Made by a program: the position numbers and the translations under genes. The notes under the pieces were generated by a model, which searched no databases, was not told the origin of the DNA, and was given only the letters and a program-made list of their open reading frames with translations. DNA of 64,000 nucleotides from Sulfurovum sp. (GTDB lineage Bacteria > Campylobacterota > Campylobacteria > Campylobacterales > Sulfurovaceae), in contig JALWTA010000038.1 of NCBI GenBank assembly GCA_027082955.1, forward strand, positions 60,338 through 124,337, given 5' to 3'. Shown here one piece after another: positions 21,367 through 30,446 of the stretch (position 1 is its first letter; every line of letters begins with the position of its first letter).

Positions 21367-21654
21367 TTACTGTTTACCATTCACTATTTGCACCAATCCA
21401 CTCTCTGCTAGCCTATCAACAAAAAGCAGTAAATCCTGTTTCAAAAGTGCTTCATCGACATCATATTCTTCAAGCAATACATTAAACACGCTCTCTAATT
21501 TTCCATCTTCTGCTTCAATAGCTTTCCAAATGGATGTACCCACTTCATCAAGTCCAAAGTAATTTTCCGAATTCATATCGAGTAGTACCATTTCACCGTC
21601 TATCTCCTGTGTGAAGACACTCTCTGAGCACACAACCCTATCTTTCACATCCAT
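21367..21654 (-). CDS. PqqD-like RiPP recognition protein (lasso B1)
   Basis: A 95-residue PqqD-fold protein. In lasso clusters the stand-alone RRE (B1) binds the leader peptide and presents it to the processing enzymes. VLLDMNSENYFGLDEVGTSIWKAIE is the typical strand-turn-helix, followed by a winged-helix-like end (LLKQDLLLFVDRLAESGLV). It lies 70 bp after the flavoprotein and 4 bp before rsmG. A role with the precursor at 26594 is inferred from the neighbourhood. Confidence 0.85.
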   Translation of the reverse strand: MDVKDRVVCSESVFTQEIDGEMVLLDMNSENYFGLDEVGTSIWKAIEAEDGKLESVFNVLLEEYDVDEALLKQDLLLFVDRLAESGLVQIVNGKQ

Positions 21655-21724: not shown

Positions 21725-22801
21725 TCAATACAGTTGTTTGGCATACGTCTGATAAAACAGATCCGGTTGATGATGAAATGCGAGAGAGACAAAAGAAAGT
21801 CGGCGTTTTAACACCATGCCTATCTCTGATTCAATACGTTCCTGATACGACTGTGCGATACTGTTTGGGCTACAATCACCTTCAAGTACAGCCGAAATGC
21901 TTTCAGCAGCAATCTTGCCACTATGCAACGCATAACGTATTCCTTCACCGCTTATAGGGTCGACCAAAGCAGCAGCATCACCTGTTAAAAGCACTCTTTT
22001 CGTTGCTATTGGTCTCCTCCCTCGATACACAGGAATAGGGTGCCCTTTAACCGATATTGCTTCAATTGCTTCTTTGGGTAATGAACGTAATAAAAAATCA
22101 TCTAAGTAATGCCTAATATTGATTGGGGACCCCCATGTACCTATTCCGCAACTTAATATGGCATTATCTTTAGGGAATATCCATCCATAACCCTTTGGAA
22201 TACAAAAGTAGTTCATCACCATTGTATTGTGAAACTGCCTGTATGCATCTGCTTTCATAATTACTTCAGCTTCCAATGATTGTGCAAATCGTCTATCACC
22301 CATTAGTCCAACTGATTCGGCAGTCCTTCCTAAAGCACCGTCTGCACCAATTACATAGCGGCTTTGAATCCTGCTTCCGTCTTTCAATACAACATTAATG
22401 CCGTTGTTTTCCTCTTCAATAATACGTACCTCTGCCCCAGTTTTCAGCATTAAACCATCAAAACGATTTTGAGCCTGACGGAGCAAAAATGCATCAAATA
22501 AACGACGATGTACCAGCAAAGGTGCCTGATTGCCTTCTGTGTGATACATGATGCTTTGTTTATAATTGTGATACAGTTGCAAACGTGTGGTACGATTAGC
22601 CACTATCTCTGACAAATCAAGGGAAAGCAAAGATTCAACAGCTCCAGGCATAGCTCCACCACATGGTTTGTCTCTGGGAATAGCAGTTTTATCAATCACC
22701 AACACCGAATACCTACCTTGTCGTGCAAACGTCAATGCTGCACTAGCACCCGCAGGTCCTGCACCAATAATAACAATATCAACACACATAAGGTTGCTCA
22801 T
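21725..22801 (-). CDS. FAD-dependent oxidoreductase, geranylgeranyl reductase family
   Basis: About 358 residues. The N-terminal Rossmann motif is DIVIIGAGPAGASAAL, followed by DKTAIPRDKPCGGAMPG (the GGR-family PCGG), GADGALGRTAE and the FAD-site GDAAALVDPISGEGIRYA. Family members reduce isoprenoid double bonds or act as monooxygenases. Inside a lasso-type cluster it may be a tailoring enzyme. The start overlaps the preceding gene by about 20 bp; ATG 22801 or 22789 are both possible. Confidence 0.85.
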   Translation of the reverse strand: MSNLMCVDIVIIGAGPAGASAALTFARQGRYSVLVIDKTAIPRDKPCGGAMPGAVESLLSLDLSEIVANRTTRLQLYHNYKQSIMYHTEGNQAPLLVHRRLFDAFLLRQAQNRFDGLMLKTGAEVRIIEEENNGINVVLKDGSRIQSRYVIGADGALGRTAESVGLMGDRRFAQSLEAEVIMKADAYRQFHNTMVMNYFCIPKGYGWIFPKDNAILSCGIGTWGSPINIRHYLDDFLLRSLPKEAIEAISVKGHPIPVYRGRRPIATKRVLLTGDAAALVDPISGEGIRYALHSGKIAAESISAVLEGDCSPNSIAQSYQERIESEIGMVLKRRLSFVSLAFHHQPDLFYQTYAKQLY

Positions 22802-24065
22802 TCCCAAGGTAATGTCTATGATAGATGTTGATCTTATCGATTTGCTCCTCTTTAATTTCTATGGCAACATCATAATATGCTTGTTTTTGCATCTTTTTAC
22901 AAACATCGTCATAATAAGGAATTATCTTTTTAAAATACTCTAGTTCATCCGCAGCCACCATAAGTTCTATTTTATAAGAGACGAACTGTTCTTCTCTATC
23001 CAACCTCAAAACCAAGTAATGTATATTTAGATCTATCTCTTCAATTGAAATATATGGTTTCAAGTATCGCGACAAAAAGTGCTTCGTCGTCTGAAAATAG
23101 AGTTTATATCCCCCCAAACCATCATCGAACACATCAATACCAATACCTATAAACTGGAGATCTTTTACATGTGGATACCTATAGTTTATTTGAAAATCCA
23201 TCAGCAGTTTGTCACCATATGTCTTTGGAGTAAACATATAAAAAGACTCTCTATAACGGGATCCTTTTTGTGCAAGGCTGTATGCTACTTGTGAGGTCTT
23301 TTCAATATCTGCTATACCTTCAAGCATATCTACATACGATCGTGCAATTGTATGTTCCCGCATAAATGAAAACTCGGTCGCATAGTCTTTAGGATTCAAA
23401 GCATTACAACCATAGATAAACCGGTTTTCAAAGGAGTGTTCTGAATCAAAATCTATATTGGTAACATAATATACCGTCCTGTAGCTTGTCGTTCTATCCT
23501 GACTTTGACAATAGTGTACATATACCGCATGCATCTGATTTAAATAATTCCACTGTGTCTGAAACGGATACAATTCATTTTGTGTAAGCTTTGTTCTCTC
23601 TTCTTCTTTTTCTATGACAGGCTTTATTGCACCTATTGAAATAAGCTCAGGAGCATGACAGATTTGCTTATCTATACACTTCCTGCACTCAGAATTTGTT
23701 TTCTCTTTTGTAGACCGAAACGGCAAGGTACCCTGCTGATATCGGAAGCGCATATACCAGTAGCTACCCAATAGTGCCCGTATAATGCATGGGGGAGTAT
23801 CATGAAAAAGAACATTTTTTTGTGCAGATAGGAGCATTTTAATGTTTTTGTCAAAAAAAATAAGCTTGCCGTAAGACTCTATATCATGTTTCACGCCTAT
23901 GCATAATCCTTTAAAAAATGGCGTACCAAGACATATCTTTACAATCTGTTTTATGGCATATTCATCTCCAGCACCGATCAAAATATCAAGCATGAACTGC
24001 TCTTTTTGACACAATCTCTTTTTAAGGCTTTCAATGCCCTCAAAACGATAACAAGGTTCAGTCAT
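22779..24065 (-). CDS. Unknown RiPP-cluster protein
   Basis: A 428-residue protein with no recognised family. It has a cysteine knuckle ECRKCIDKQICH near residue 135, which could hold zinc or an Fe-S cluster. The C-terminal half is strand-rich, with FIGIGIDVFDDGLGGYKLYF near residue 300; the D..G..KLYF pattern faintly recalls ABBA-type prenyltransferases. Overlaps of 8 bp with the kinase gene and about 20 bp with the flavoprotein gene show it is part of the cluster. Enzyme, partner or substrate-binding role cannot be assigned. Confidence 0.75.
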   Translation of the reverse strand: MTEPCYRFEGIESLKKRLCQKEQFMLDILIGAGDEYAIKQIVKICLGTPFFKGLCIGVKHDIESYGKLIFFDKNIKMLLSAQKNVLFHDTPPCIIRALLGSYWYMRFRYQQGTLPFRSTKEKTNSECRKCIDKQICHAPELISIGAIKPVIEKEEERTKLTQNELYPFQTQWNYLNQMHAVYVHYCQSQDRTTSYRTVYYVTNIDFDSEHSFENRFIYGCNALNPKDYATEFSFMREHTIARSYVDMLEGIADIEKTSQVAYSLAQKGSRYRESFYMFTPKTYGDKLLMDFQINYRYPHVKDLQFIGIGIDVFDDGLGGYKLYFQTTKHFLSRYLKPYISIEEIDLNIHYLVLRLDREEQFVSYKIELMVAADELEYFKKIIPYYDDVCKKMQKQAYYDVAIEIKEEQIDKINIYHRHYLGNEQPYVC

Positions 24066-24966
24066 TTGTATGCCCTGATGTAATCTGATCTACCACTGCA
24101 TAATAAACCTCGTTAAGACGTTCGATCTCTTTTGGTACATTTATCTGATATAATTGTACACTTCCGCTAAACTTCAGTAGATACTGCATTTCGGTCGTTG
24201 ATATTGAGATCGGCTCATATAGATATGCCTGCTGCAAAACTTCAAATTTGTGCAGCCCTCCAATTAACTGAATAGAACATTTTTCATCTGACTCAACAAA
24301 CGATAACAAAAAAACACCTCCTACTGGAAGAGGTGATGAGCAGTATCTTTCTGTTAATGTTCCAAGTGTTTCAAAATCACGGGTCGTTCTGCGATAAGGA
24401 TAGGATGGGTAAGCAAAGTAACCATCTGGGGTCAATACTATTCTGATTTTATCATCAGATAACAGTCTGTGTCCCTGCTGTACAAAAAAATCTGCCAGTG
24501 TTGATTTCCCGCCATAGGATGGGGCAATGAATAAAATGGCTTTTCCACCTACCTCCACGGCTGAGGCATGCAGTAGTATATCGCCTTGCGCAAGCATCAT
24601 ATAAACTGGCATGACCGTATGTGAAAGCCAAAAAAGAAGCTTCGTGCTATTTCCTTCTCCACCGAGTGTTTCAACACACATTTCTCTCTGATGATTTGAC
24701 CAAGTAAACACAAACCTCTTTTCGATAACAAGCTGCCATACTCTCGATGGAGATGAACGAGGGTCAGAAAAAGGAAGATTGCTGCGAAGCTGTGTCGATT
24801 GTCCATGGAGATTCACAGAAGGTATTGCGTATGGCATCGCTTGAACTAATGTACACTCTTTATCAAGATGCAGCAAAAGCTTTTGGTCCGATATGCTCTC
24901 CGGTGTACGCTCTAAAGGCAATGTGGTGGAGGTTTTAACTTCGATGCCGTAAATAACAAATTTCAT
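24058..24966 (-). CDS. HPr kinase-like protein of the lasso cluster
   Basis: A 302-residue protein with the HprK core: LLHASAVEVGGKAILFIAPSYGGKST (catalytic His region plus Walker A) and HRLLSDD. In the paeninodin-type lasso clusters a homologue phosphorylates the C-terminal Ser of the precursor. The precursor here ends in Ser, which fits. The gene overlaps the cyclase by four bases. It lacks the N-terminal sensor domain of true HprK, and no HPr is nearby. Confidence 0.85.
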   Translation of the reverse strand: MKFVIYGIEVKTSTTLPLERTPESISDQKLLLHLDKECTLVQAMPYAIPSVNLHGQSTQLRSNLPFSDPRSSPSRVWQLVIEKRFVFTWSNHQREMCVETLGGEGNSTKLLFWLSHTVMPVYMMLAQGDILLHASAVEVGGKAILFIAPSYGGKSTLADFFVQQGHRLLSDDKIRIVLTPDGYFAYPSYPYRRTTRDFETLGTLTERYCSSPLPVGGVFLLSFVESDEKCSIQLIGGLHKFEVLQQAYLYEPISISTTEMQYLLKFSGSVQLYQINVPKEIERLNEVYYAVVDQITSGHTND

Positions 24967-26588
24967 CTCTTTTCATCTCTCCTTCCATTGGCATTGACAA
25001 AATTATACCGATACCAGTACTCTAGATTGATCAACTGCCAAAAATAGACAACAGAACGCATTTCCCCGCTTTTGTATCTCTGCACATATTGGTCAAGACT
25101 TTTTTGTTCCATTATGCCAAGCTTTGCCAAATATGCATTCTCAAATAACGCTCGAATATCCAACGCATCAATCTGCTGTTTCAATACATCTGTGAACTGT
25201 GCTTTATCATCACGTTGTCTGATCTCTTCCGGCAATATTCCCTTCATAGCAACACGCAAAAGACGTTTACTAAATCCTGCTGAATACTTCATATGCATTG
25301 GAAGCGACAATGCAAATTCTATAAGCTGTCTATCAAAAAACGGATGTCTGAAACGAATACCGTAGTACTTCTCTGCAACCGTATAGTAACTGCTTTCCAG
25401 CAATACAGATAGACTCGAATGCAACACACCTGCAAGTTCCGCTTTAAACGCATACGATTTCCCATCGTAACATTCATAAAGCTCTTCTACCTTTGGTACT
25501 TGACAAGAATCGGTCTTTTTGGTAAAACTTCCTCTCCGTATGGTTCTGACAGCATTGCGCAATCTATTGAGGTTCTTCTCTCCTATCATTGGATACAATA
25601 CATAATGTATCAATTTTTTATGCGGCTGAGGCACATATCTTAACTCTTGATATAGTCGTTTAAACTGCCTCGTCACAAAAAGATCATACAAAATAAAAGG
25701 ATTACCTGCAAGAATATTGTCTCCCCCTTGCCCAGTAAGTACAGTGTTTAGACCATTGCGACACACCTGTTCCACTATAGAAAAACCCATCGTGTAGGTG
25801 ATGAAAATCGGCCAATACGGGTGCATATCATAATTCTTTTTAAGACTGTACTCTGTTTTATAATCCATCTTGTCTGTCTGTGCACAATAAAGATCAATGT
25901 CATATTTATTCTTCACTGCTTGAGCATACTGTATCTCATCACACTCTTTCAAGCTTTGGAAAGACATGGAAAATGCTTTAATGCGCTTCTTTGGATAACG
26001 TTGCTTGACCCAGGATACAACAGAGGAGGAGTCCAACCCTCCACTTAATTCAAATCCGGTTCTATCTATATTATCTATACGGCTGAAGATTGCATCATCA
26101 AACAGTTTTTGAAACGTCTCTACAGCCTCCTCTTCATCCAAAGCTTCATTTTGCTCTATCTCTTCTGGCTTCCAGTAACGCTCTATTTTATAGGTTCCAT
26201 TTGCCAAAATTTTCATGTAGTGTCCAGGAGGCACTCGAAAAACCCCGCGGTACATTGTCCTTTCATATGCAATAGCCTGATAGTGAACAATCTGATGCAT
26301 CGTTTGCATATCAGGTTCGGGAGCAAGAGCACTTTTTGTAAACAACCTGCCCATATCCGTTTCTAAATATACTTTCCCTTCTGCTATTGTATAATAGAGT
26401 GGTGTGATACCGATGATATCTCGTGCTGCAAAAACATACTTCTTCTCATGATCAATAATAACAAAAGACTCTTCACAGGGAAGATGGTCAAGACACGATT
26501 TTCCAAATTGTCTATATGCCTCACTGATACGAGTGGTGTCATGACAGAATAACACCTCAAACTGTCGATACTCTTTTTCTTGAGGCAT
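24963..26588 (-). CDS. Lasso peptide cyclase, asparagine-synthetase-like
   Basis: About 541 residues. The N-terminal class II amidotransferase-like domain has no catalytic Cys, and the C-terminal half carries the ATP-pyrophosphatase loop ELSGGLDSSSVVSW and TGQGGDNILAG. In lasso clusters this enzyme adenylates an Asp or Glu side chain of the core so that the core N-terminus closes the ring. The track begins at a TTG inside the precursor stop; ATG 26588, five bases after that stop, is more natural. Tightly coupled to the precursor upstream and to the kinase downstream. Confidence 0.9.
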   Translation of the reverse strand: MPQEKEYRQFEVLFCHDTTRISEAYRQFGKSCLDHLPCEESFVIIDHEKKYVFAARDIIGITPLYYTIAEGKVYLETDMGRLFTKSALAPEPDMQTMHQIVHYQAIAYERTMYRGVFRVPPGHYMKILANGTYKIERYWKPEEIEQNEALDEEEAVETFQKLFDDAIFSRIDNIDRTGFELSGGLDSSSVVSWVKQRYPKKRIKAFSMSFQSLKECDEIQYAQAVKNKYDIDLYCAQTDKMDYKTEYSLKKNYDMHPYWPIFITYTMGFSIVEQVCRNGLNTVLTGQGGDNILAGNPFILYDLFVTRQFKRLYQELRYVPQPHKKLIHYVLYPMIGEKNLNRLRNAVRTIRRGSFTKKTDSCQVPKVEELYECYDGKSYAFKAELAGVLHSSLSVLLESSYYTVAEKYYGIRFRHPFFDRQLIEFALSLPMHMKYSAGFSKRLLRVAMKGILPEEIRQRDDKAQFTDVLKQQIDALDIRALFENAYLAKLGIMEQKSLDQYVQRYKSGEMRSVVYFWQLINLEYWYRYNFVNANGRRDEKR

Positions 26589-26593
26589 ACAGG

Positions 26594-26755
26594 TCAAGAC
26601 CGTGTCGGTGCTCCGTAATATTGCCCGCCGTCAGGTTGTCCTGTTCCGTTGATATTGCCTTTTGTGTACTCAGCGAATGTACCATACTTTTGCAGTACCG
26701 GTTTATGATACACTTTCTTTTTAGCTATGAACTCTTTCTGTTTCTCTTTCGACAT
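26594..26755 (-). CDS. Lasso-type RiPP precursor peptide
   Basis: A 53-residue peptide missing from the ORF track. After a basic N-terminus it has Y16, P19, L21, G25 and T31, exactly the lasso leader pattern YxxPxLxxxGxxxxxT. With Thr at -2, the core is 21 residues starting GNINGTGQPDGG and ending APTRS. The only acidic residue, Asp42, would be position 10 of the core, one beyond the 7-9 residue rings I know. AAGGGAG precedes the ATG. The cyclase starts within a few bases of its stop. Confidence 0.85.
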   Translation of the reverse strand: MSKEKQKEFIAKKKVYHKPVLQKYGTFAEYTKGNINGTGQPDGGQYYGAPTRS

Positions 26756-28642: not shown

Positions 28643-28713
28643 GAACTTTTCATGTGCCTACTTATTCCAACCTTAACTGCTCCCTTCTCCCTATCACCTA
28701 TCTTCCTCCTTTG

Positions 28714-28934
28714 GAACCGAAAGCTTTAGCTTCGGCAACACGCTCTACAGGTCTGAAGCCTACATTTGTTAGGAACCGACTGCTTTAGCGTCGGCAATAC
28801 GTTGCATTGATAACATAACGTCTAACGGGGCTAAAGCCTCCGACACCAAAAAGATAGGAACCGAAAGCTTTAGCTTCGAATATAGATTGAGTGATGCAAT
28901 AACTGTTGGCGGGACTAAAGTCCCCGACGCCAAC
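28714..28934. repeat. REP-like palindromic repeats, five units
   Basis: The hemB-relE gap of about 310 bp holds five units related to GGAACCGAAAGCTTTAGCTT. Three are direct (near 28714, 28770 and 28857) and two are in the opposite direction (ACGGGGCTAAAGCCTCCGAC near 28825, GGCGGGACTAAAGTCCCCGA near 28911). Paired, inverted arrangement is that of REP/BIME clusters. No gene is seen in this gap. Confidence 0.7.
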
Positions 28935-28955: not shown

Positions 28956-29252
28956 TTACAACCGTTCGGAAGCTTTGGCATACACCGCCATATCTTCCCG
29001 TTTGCCCACAACAATTACCTCAACAATAATTTGTGACTCAATGATCCGATAAACAATGCGAATTTTTTTCTTATCAACATATAATTTACGAAGACCGCTT
29101 AAATTGTATCCGGATTTATTACCAAGAAAGTCTCCAAGTTCAGGAGACTCTTGAAGCTTTTTGAATTGCTTGTACACAAGCATTCTTTGTGATTTTGAGA
29201 GTTTTGAAAGATCTTTCTCTACCTCTTTTTTTACTTTAAGCTTATAACTCAT
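28956..29252 (-). CDS. RelE/ParE-family toxin
   Basis: A 98-residue toxin with the RelE pattern: SYKLKVKKEVEKDLSKLSK, then LYVDKKKIRIVYRI and IVVGKREDMAVY. Members cut mRNA at the ribosome or poison gyrase; which is not decidable. ATG 29252 overlaps the antitoxin end by 11 bp. The track start would sit inside the antitoxin. Confidence 0.85.
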   Translation of the reverse strand: MSYKLKVKKEVEKDLSKLSKSQRMLVYKQFKKLQESPELGDFLGNKSGYNLSGLRKLYVDKKKIRIVYRIIESQIIVEVIVVGKREDMAVYAKASERL

Positions 29253-29532
29253 CGTAGGAGATACCTTCTTTTTCCAACAATGTTTCAAAATCGATCGTTT
29301 CAGAATCTTTTCTCTCCTCTACGATTTTTGCAATCTCTGCATGCTCCATAAGTTCATACGCTTCTTTCAGACGCTCATACTCTTCGATATCGATTATGAC
29401 TGCTTCAAGCCTGTTGTTTTTGGATATGGCTATTTTCTCTTTTGTCTTTTTTATAATGCTATTCAATGTACCCGAAACATTACGTGCCAAATCTGTTGCG
29501 GAAATAATTTCATCTCTTGTATAGGCTACCAT
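29242..29532 (-). CDS. Phd/YefM-type antitoxin
   Basis: 96 residues, N-terminal DNA-binding and dimer part with ISATDLARNVSGTLNSI and AISKNNRLEAVIIDIEEYERL, and an acidic C-terminal toxin-binding tail. First gene of the pair, as usual for autoregulated toxin-antitoxin operons. Its promoter faces the amidase-like gene. Confidence 0.85.
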   Translation of the reverse strand: MVAYTRDEIISATDLARNVSGTLNSIIKKTKEKIAISKNNRLEAVIIDIEEYERLKEAYELMEHAEIAKIVEERKDSETIDFETLLEKEGISYDEL

Positions 29533-30301: not shown

Positions 30302-30339
30302 ATTATTCATACTTTTGCTGATGTGAACCTTAGCTCTCC

Positions 30340-30446
30340 TTGGAGCCGATTGCTTTTGCTTCGGCAAAACATTGTATTAAAAACATAACGTTTAACGGGG
30401 CTAAAGCCTCCGACACCAAAAGAGACAGGAACCGAAAGCCATAGCA
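30340..30446. repeat. REP-like palindromic repeats
   Basis: A direct unit (GGAGCCGATTGCTTTTGCTT), an inverted unit (ACGGGGCTAAAGCCTCCGAC) and a partial direct unit (GGAACCGAAAGCCATAGC) match the cluster at 28.7 kb. They fill the gap before argF. Confidence 0.65.

Follow-up and report, generated by a model that had tools for sequence, protein, structure and literature searches.

A lasso peptide precursor from Sulfurovum with a predicted ten-residue ring

Lasso peptides that have been structurally characterised carry rings of 7, 8 or 9 residues (PMC13352647). A preliminary description of one locus from an uncultured Sulfurovum pointed out a precursor whose only core acid, Asp42, would stand at position 10, and left three options: a larger ring, a leader cut further downstream, or another linkage. 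Which of these fits the locus and its relatives? The window analysed here comprises 64,000 nucleotides; its contig is 124 kb long and belongs to the assembly G000, which totals 2.1 Mb, and the closest named relative of its cluster is found in Sulfurovum sp. SZUA-1512. The reading that we regard as best, with slightly better than even confidence, is that of a natural lasso peptide with a ten-residue ring, as deduced from the comparisons below.

The gene cluster and its precursor

Six intact genes lie on the minus strand from 26755 down to 21367, in the order A, C, K, U428, flavoenzyme and B1, followed by gidB:

26594..26755, minus: lasso precursor peptide A, 53 aa (open reading frame; lasso_leader_L3 match; constrained homologue in L022)
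26597..26659, minus: predicted core peptide, Gly33-Ser53 (Tyr16 at -17, Pro19 at -14, Leu21 at -12, Thr31 at -2; rule of PMC10368454)
26630..26632, minus: codon of Asp42, core position 10, predicted isopeptide acceptor (sole core acid; conserved in L022)
24963..26597 (first ATG at 26588), minus: lasso cyclase C, asparagine-synthetase family (PF00733, 6.7e-41; NF033535, 221.9 bits)
24058..24966, minus: HPr-kinase-like protein K, candidate peptide kinase (weak PF07475 and TIGR04249 matches, below cut-off)
22779..24065, minus: U428, 428 aa, of no known family, candidate tailoring enzyme (relatives in lasso loci)
21725..22807, minus: FAD-dependent reductase of the geranylgeranyl reductase family (TIGR02032, 224.3 bits, cut-off 158.8)
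21367..21654, minus: PqqD-family leader-binding protein B1 (PF05402, 2.3e-15; NF033536, lasso_PqqD_Bac, 58 bits, cut-off 80)

C and K share a few bases, as do K and U428, and U428 and the reductase. A lasso-linked PqqD gene also adjoins gidB in G016, G014 and G029, and the two genes after gidB are common to the window and G024, which together place the cluster at a shared chromosomal site. An AAGGGAG stretch was read by eye 5' of the ATG of A, and a scan of the stretch between A and ribA for promoters and terminators found none. Elsewhere in the window, a 98-nt unit occurs in two copies 1570 bases apart and 82% alike (28711-28889 and 30324-30421), and a 35-nt core is present four times; the whole has the look of a small dispersed repeat. 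Near these repeats, a ParE-like toxin gene overlaps a Phd/YefM-like antitoxin gene (28956-29532, minus strand).

The precursor was correctly located by the preliminary description, and is read from the minus strand. It consists of the leader MSKEKQKEFIAKKKVYHKPVLQKYGTFAEYTK (residues 1-32) and the predicted core GNINGTGQPDGGQYYGAPTRS (residues 33-53), and scores 21.9 bits against the NCBIfam model lasso_leader_L3 (NF033521; cut-off 19). The core bears out the two features first noted in it: Asp42 is the sole Asp or Glu past residue 32, and the C-terminal half is rich in Gly and Tyr. With its YxxP leader, Thr at -2 and a suitable acid, it has the make-up of a lasso precursor. The homologue in L022 (Sulfurovum SZUA-1512; same contig as G005) reads ...VYHTPHIKEYGNFTEYTK followed by GSFDGQGQADGQQYYGSDLYS and aligns without gaps from residue 4 onward, with differences of 0.35, 0.24 and 0.61 at codon positions 1, 2 and 3. 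Such a codon pattern, typical of a selected protein, together with the gapless homologue, shows that A is no chance open reading frame. All of A, C and K show codon constraint between the window and L022, and by this measure the precursor is under protein-level constraint, as is the cyclase.

Cyclase C has NF033535 (lass_lactam_cya) as its best NCBIfam match, which begins at model position 100 and stays below the 525-bit cut-off; its amidotransferase-like domain is shorter at the N-terminus than that of full-length lasso cyclases. In the cyclase tree it groups with lasso-linked cyclases, and it was classed as a macrolactam cyclase. The same N-terminal shortening of the amidotransferase-like domain marks a subgroup of cyclases of about 534-547 aa (window, L022, L025, L026, L027, L093, L094, L109, L110), while cyclases of 603-640 aa from the same family retain the missing part. 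Protein K, 48% identical in L022 and linked to C in most clusters, scores below the family cut-offs; it contains a P-loop-like APSYGGKST, and the core ends in a Ser. The PF05402 match identifies B1 as the PqqD-type leader-binding component expected of a lasso cluster.

The leader register and the position of the ring acid

In leaders of this kind the YxxPxL motif spans -17 to -12, and Thr at -2 was the rule for YxxP-type leaders until the Ile exception reported in the same paper (PMC10368454). When Gly33 is taken as +1, Tyr16 falls at -17, Leu21 at -12 and Thr31 at -2. The start at Gly33, first proposed from the Thr, is thus also given by the Tyr, and we favour it since the two leader marks agree. 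We compared the register across 20 YxxP precursors from Sulfurovaceae, gathered by cyclase, B2 and precursor-profile searches; they represent one family and are not independent cases, several of the source genomes are incomplete assemblies, and the surroundings of the precursor were examined for all but G477 and G487. With Tyr fixed at -17, Thr stands at -2 in 18 of the 20, the exceptions being G043 (Ile at -2) and G036 (one residue shorter), and core position 1 is Gly in 16.

When the first acid at core position 7 or beyond is counted in this register, eight precursors have it at 8, six at 9, four at 10 and two at 7, the last being the two register exceptions themselves. The same register that puts the window acid at 10 thus gives mostly 8 or 9, and predicts ordinary rings elsewhere in the family. 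The window core has no acid at positions 7-9 (with Tyr at -17 and Thr at -2), and we therefore treat it as a variant rather than a plain lasso member. An acid at 10 only is found in the window, in its closest homologue (L022/G005), in G016 and in G029. Between the window and L022/G005, Asp10 is the only ring-region acid in common. G014, among the six precursors with an acid at 9, has Glu9 followed by Asp10, and its core (GGPSPTATED) resembles that of G016 (GGVSPTSTLD): the pair shares Asp10 but not the acid at 9. An alignment of relatives had been suggested as the way to find which Gly-Asp distance is kept, and it is Asp10 that recurs, both in the nearest homologue and in this pair; homologues with Asp or Glu at 7-9, which had been named as the observation that would speak for a mutant or misread copy, occur solely in more distant clusters.

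The cyclase tree places window plus L022, G016 and G029 in three separate positions, and the sister of window plus L022 is G001, whose precursor has Asp8 (support of the fork 91/82). Asp10-only precursors have thus likely arisen recurrently, to judge from this tree. The G016 cluster is complete and canonical, with ABC transporter, B2, K, C, A and PqqD. G029 is the weaker third case, because its core would start with Asn and the only cyclase found there is a distant one on a long branch. A mutated or misread codon was considered as the source of Asp10 and is unlikely, given its conservation in L022, the constraint on the gene, the recurrence in the tree and the complete G016 cluster.

A second type of precursor exists in the same genus (L093, L094, L097, L098, L091, L043), with a WxxP motif nearer to the core, at about -15 where counted. 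These precursors have their acid mostly at 8 and belong with a different cyclase clade, and some genomes hold both types side by side.

Ring closure, leader removal and tailoring

The spacing downstream of the acid provides a further comparison. The cores of two other U428-bearing clusters with normal rings, GSSGTGSDAGTYQ (G494) and GSSGSGTDGGTYK (G476), have Asp8 with a Tyr four residues on, so that the motif D-[AG]-G-T-Y begins at Asp8 (L109, L110). The same Asp-to-Tyr distance is found from Asp10 in the window (DGGQY) and in L022 (DGQQY). This kept spacing suggests that Asp10 is probably the ring Asp, and in the simplest reading it would be the equivalent of Asp8 with two more residues in the ring. 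The U428-linked precursors at L109:7161-7376 and L110:8990-9202 also carry a long extra tail with a shared end motif, FD-x-x-x-FD-x-S-x-FDR, which is absent from the window precursor and is perhaps a removed follower.

From what the sequences show directly, namely the reading frame and its conservation, the register, the kept Asp10 and the gene set, we propose the following route. The PqqD-type B1 would bind YHKPVL of the leader, which would be cut after Lys32, with Thr31 at -2; cyclase C would adenylate the Asp42 side chain and join it to the Gly33 amine. The product would have a ten-residue ring and an 11-residue tail, GGQYYGAPTRS, threaded with Tyr46 and Tyr47 as likely plugs. Its calculated [M+2H]2+ is 1046.478, against 1017.967 for a nine-residue ring from Asn34 and 960.945 for an eight-residue ring from Ile35; a phosphate would add 39.98. 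K may phosphorylate a Ser or Thr, and U428 and the flavoenzyme would be tailoring enzymes, perhaps acting on Tyr46. Neither a profile search for the leader peptidase B2 (Transglut_core3) at E<=0.1 nor a query with a B2 protein of the genus at E<=1 found one in the window genome, which is 95.6% complete, and none was found in G005, an assembly 78% complete in which the cluster contig ends early. B2 scored over cut-off in 24 of the 78 genomes of the genus search, and G024 and G016 have an ABC transporter and B2 within the cluster. For the window genome, the few percent absent from the assembly may hold B2, a different peptidase may be at work, or the pathway may be broken. B1-type proteins can work with an unrelated peptidase, as in a family of linear phosphopeptides (PMC13381572). 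U428 was considered as a replacement for B2 and set aside, as the two occur together in one cluster (G494) and in one genome (G476).

The missing B2 bears on ring size as well: without it the leader may not be cut at the usual place, which weakens the case for ten residues. The main rival, which we consider unlikely, is a cut one residue later, after Gly33 and the matching residue of the relatives. It would yield a standard nine-residue ring from Asn34, a start with a precedent in metanodin (PMC12670498), with L022 beginning with Ser and G016 and G014 with Gly, and in a genome without B2 a different peptidase may cut at a different site. Yet this cut would leave Tyr at -18 and Thr at -3, contrary to 18 of the 20 relatives, and would discard the Gly found at position 1 in 16 of them; G016 has a normal B2, and the core of G029 would begin with Gln. 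Of the options initially raised, the register thus favours the larger ring, the shifted cut being the less probable of the two. Decay of the cluster, with B2 gone, the precursor unmatured and the position of the Asp free of selection, appears distinctly unlikely. It would agree with the lack of an exporter in the cluster and of B2 in the genome, when 24 of the 78 genomes searched do have B2 over cut-off, but all six reading frames are intact, three junctions overlap, A, C and K are constrained against L022 and Asp10 is kept there; a broken pathway is disfavoured on the same grounds.

We find it very unlikely that the peptide matures without an isopeptide bond at Asp42, either as a linear phosphorylated peptide or through another linkage. 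Beside lasso clusters one does find linear RiPPs that are phosphorylated and are accompanied by an RRE and a kinase of the HprK type (PMC13381572), but these systems come without a cyclase, whereas the window has one with SGGLDSS; and the truncated amidotransferase-like domain, which could hint at a different linkage, is common to clusters with ordinary Asp8 or Asp9 precursors. As for the ten-residue ring itself, its chemistry is possible, since a review describes a fuscanodin/fusilassin analogue with such a ring made in vitro (PMC8498205). The range of 7 to 9 residues given for known rings holds for structurally characterised peptides, but not for this analogue. On the other side, changing the ring by one residue usually lowers the yield of engineered lassos (PMC13352647), which weakens the reading. 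We found no natural ten-residue lasso ring in the open-access library searched, which takes in few subscription journals.

Two further genes of the cluster are of a tailoring type and are linked to lasso clusters in relatives. U428 is a fusion of an N part with CxxCx5C and a C part, and has no meaningful match in Pfam, NCBIfam or PDB. Its relatives lie in lasso loci of G005, G268, G494 and G476, and G494 has a second copy on a short contig without a cyclase. The parts are separate reading frames in L022, whose contig retains the N part only, and in G268, where the split U428 (L088:9428-10713) lies beside a WxxP-type lasso cluster with its own cyclase and B2. The reductase, a member of the geranylgeranyl reductase family by its TIGR02032 score, occurs with U428 in the window, G268 and G494; it adjoins U428 in L088 and is in the same cluster in L109, and tblastn found none in the other lasso loci searched. 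As the G494 cluster also holds B2, U428 is probably a tailoring enzyme, judging from this gene context.

In the C part of U428, five stretches resemble strand pairs by eye, and each contains a basic residue that the five C parts have in common. ABBA-type aromatic prenyltransferases are ten-stranded barrels of five alpha-beta-beta-alpha units. The resemblance led us to the tentative idea, more doubtful than credible, that U428 is an ABBA-type prenyltransferase, which would fit the neighbouring reductase. The family, PDB and profile tests of this idea failed: the hhalign comparison of the C part with NphB relatives scored no better than column-shuffled controls and aligned out of register, giving no detectable homology to the NphB family, and a single-sequence structure model (pLDDT 35) was too poor for use. 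The full picture, a natural class of ten-residue-ring lassos without canonical B2, in which the Tyr four past the ring Asp is lipid-tailored by a new U428 prenyltransferase family and then reduced at a double bond by the geranylgeranyl-reductase-family enzyme, would be a long shot.

Comparison with known lasso systems

A family of clusters that conserve Asp10 beside sisters with 8 or 9 would allow a direct test of how large the ring can be, since natural cyclases for every size could be compared, and would caution genome-mining software against dropping precursors that lack an acid at 7-9. Two separate questions follow, one on leader removal from the absence of B2 and one on tailoring from the orphan U428. 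If U428 and the flavoenzyme act in a lipid-like tailoring, they would recall the Trp-prenylated and Tyr-acylated lasso peptides already known (PMC13352647), though U428 has no match among the known families of prenyl- and acyltransferases. The nearest parallel is the group of paeninodin-type and proteobacterial kinase-bearing lassos (pade, bsf), which likewise combine a YxxPxL leader, a separate PqqD-type B1, an asparagine-synthetase-type cyclase and an HPr-kinase-like gene; the window differs in its acid at 10 instead of 8 or 9, in the lack of B2, and in the addition of U428 and the geranylgeranyl-reductase-family enzyme. Metanodin, from a soil metagenome (PMC12670498), similarly has an uncultured source and an unusual ring start deduced from Thr at -2, but has a nine-residue ring from Asn, whereas the register of the window agrees with a start at Gly33 and a ring of ten would result. 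The fuscanodin/fusilassin analogue (PMC8498205) likewise has a macrolactam of ten residues closed by a lasso cyclase, but it was engineered in vitro, whereas here it is a natural sequence that implies such a ring.
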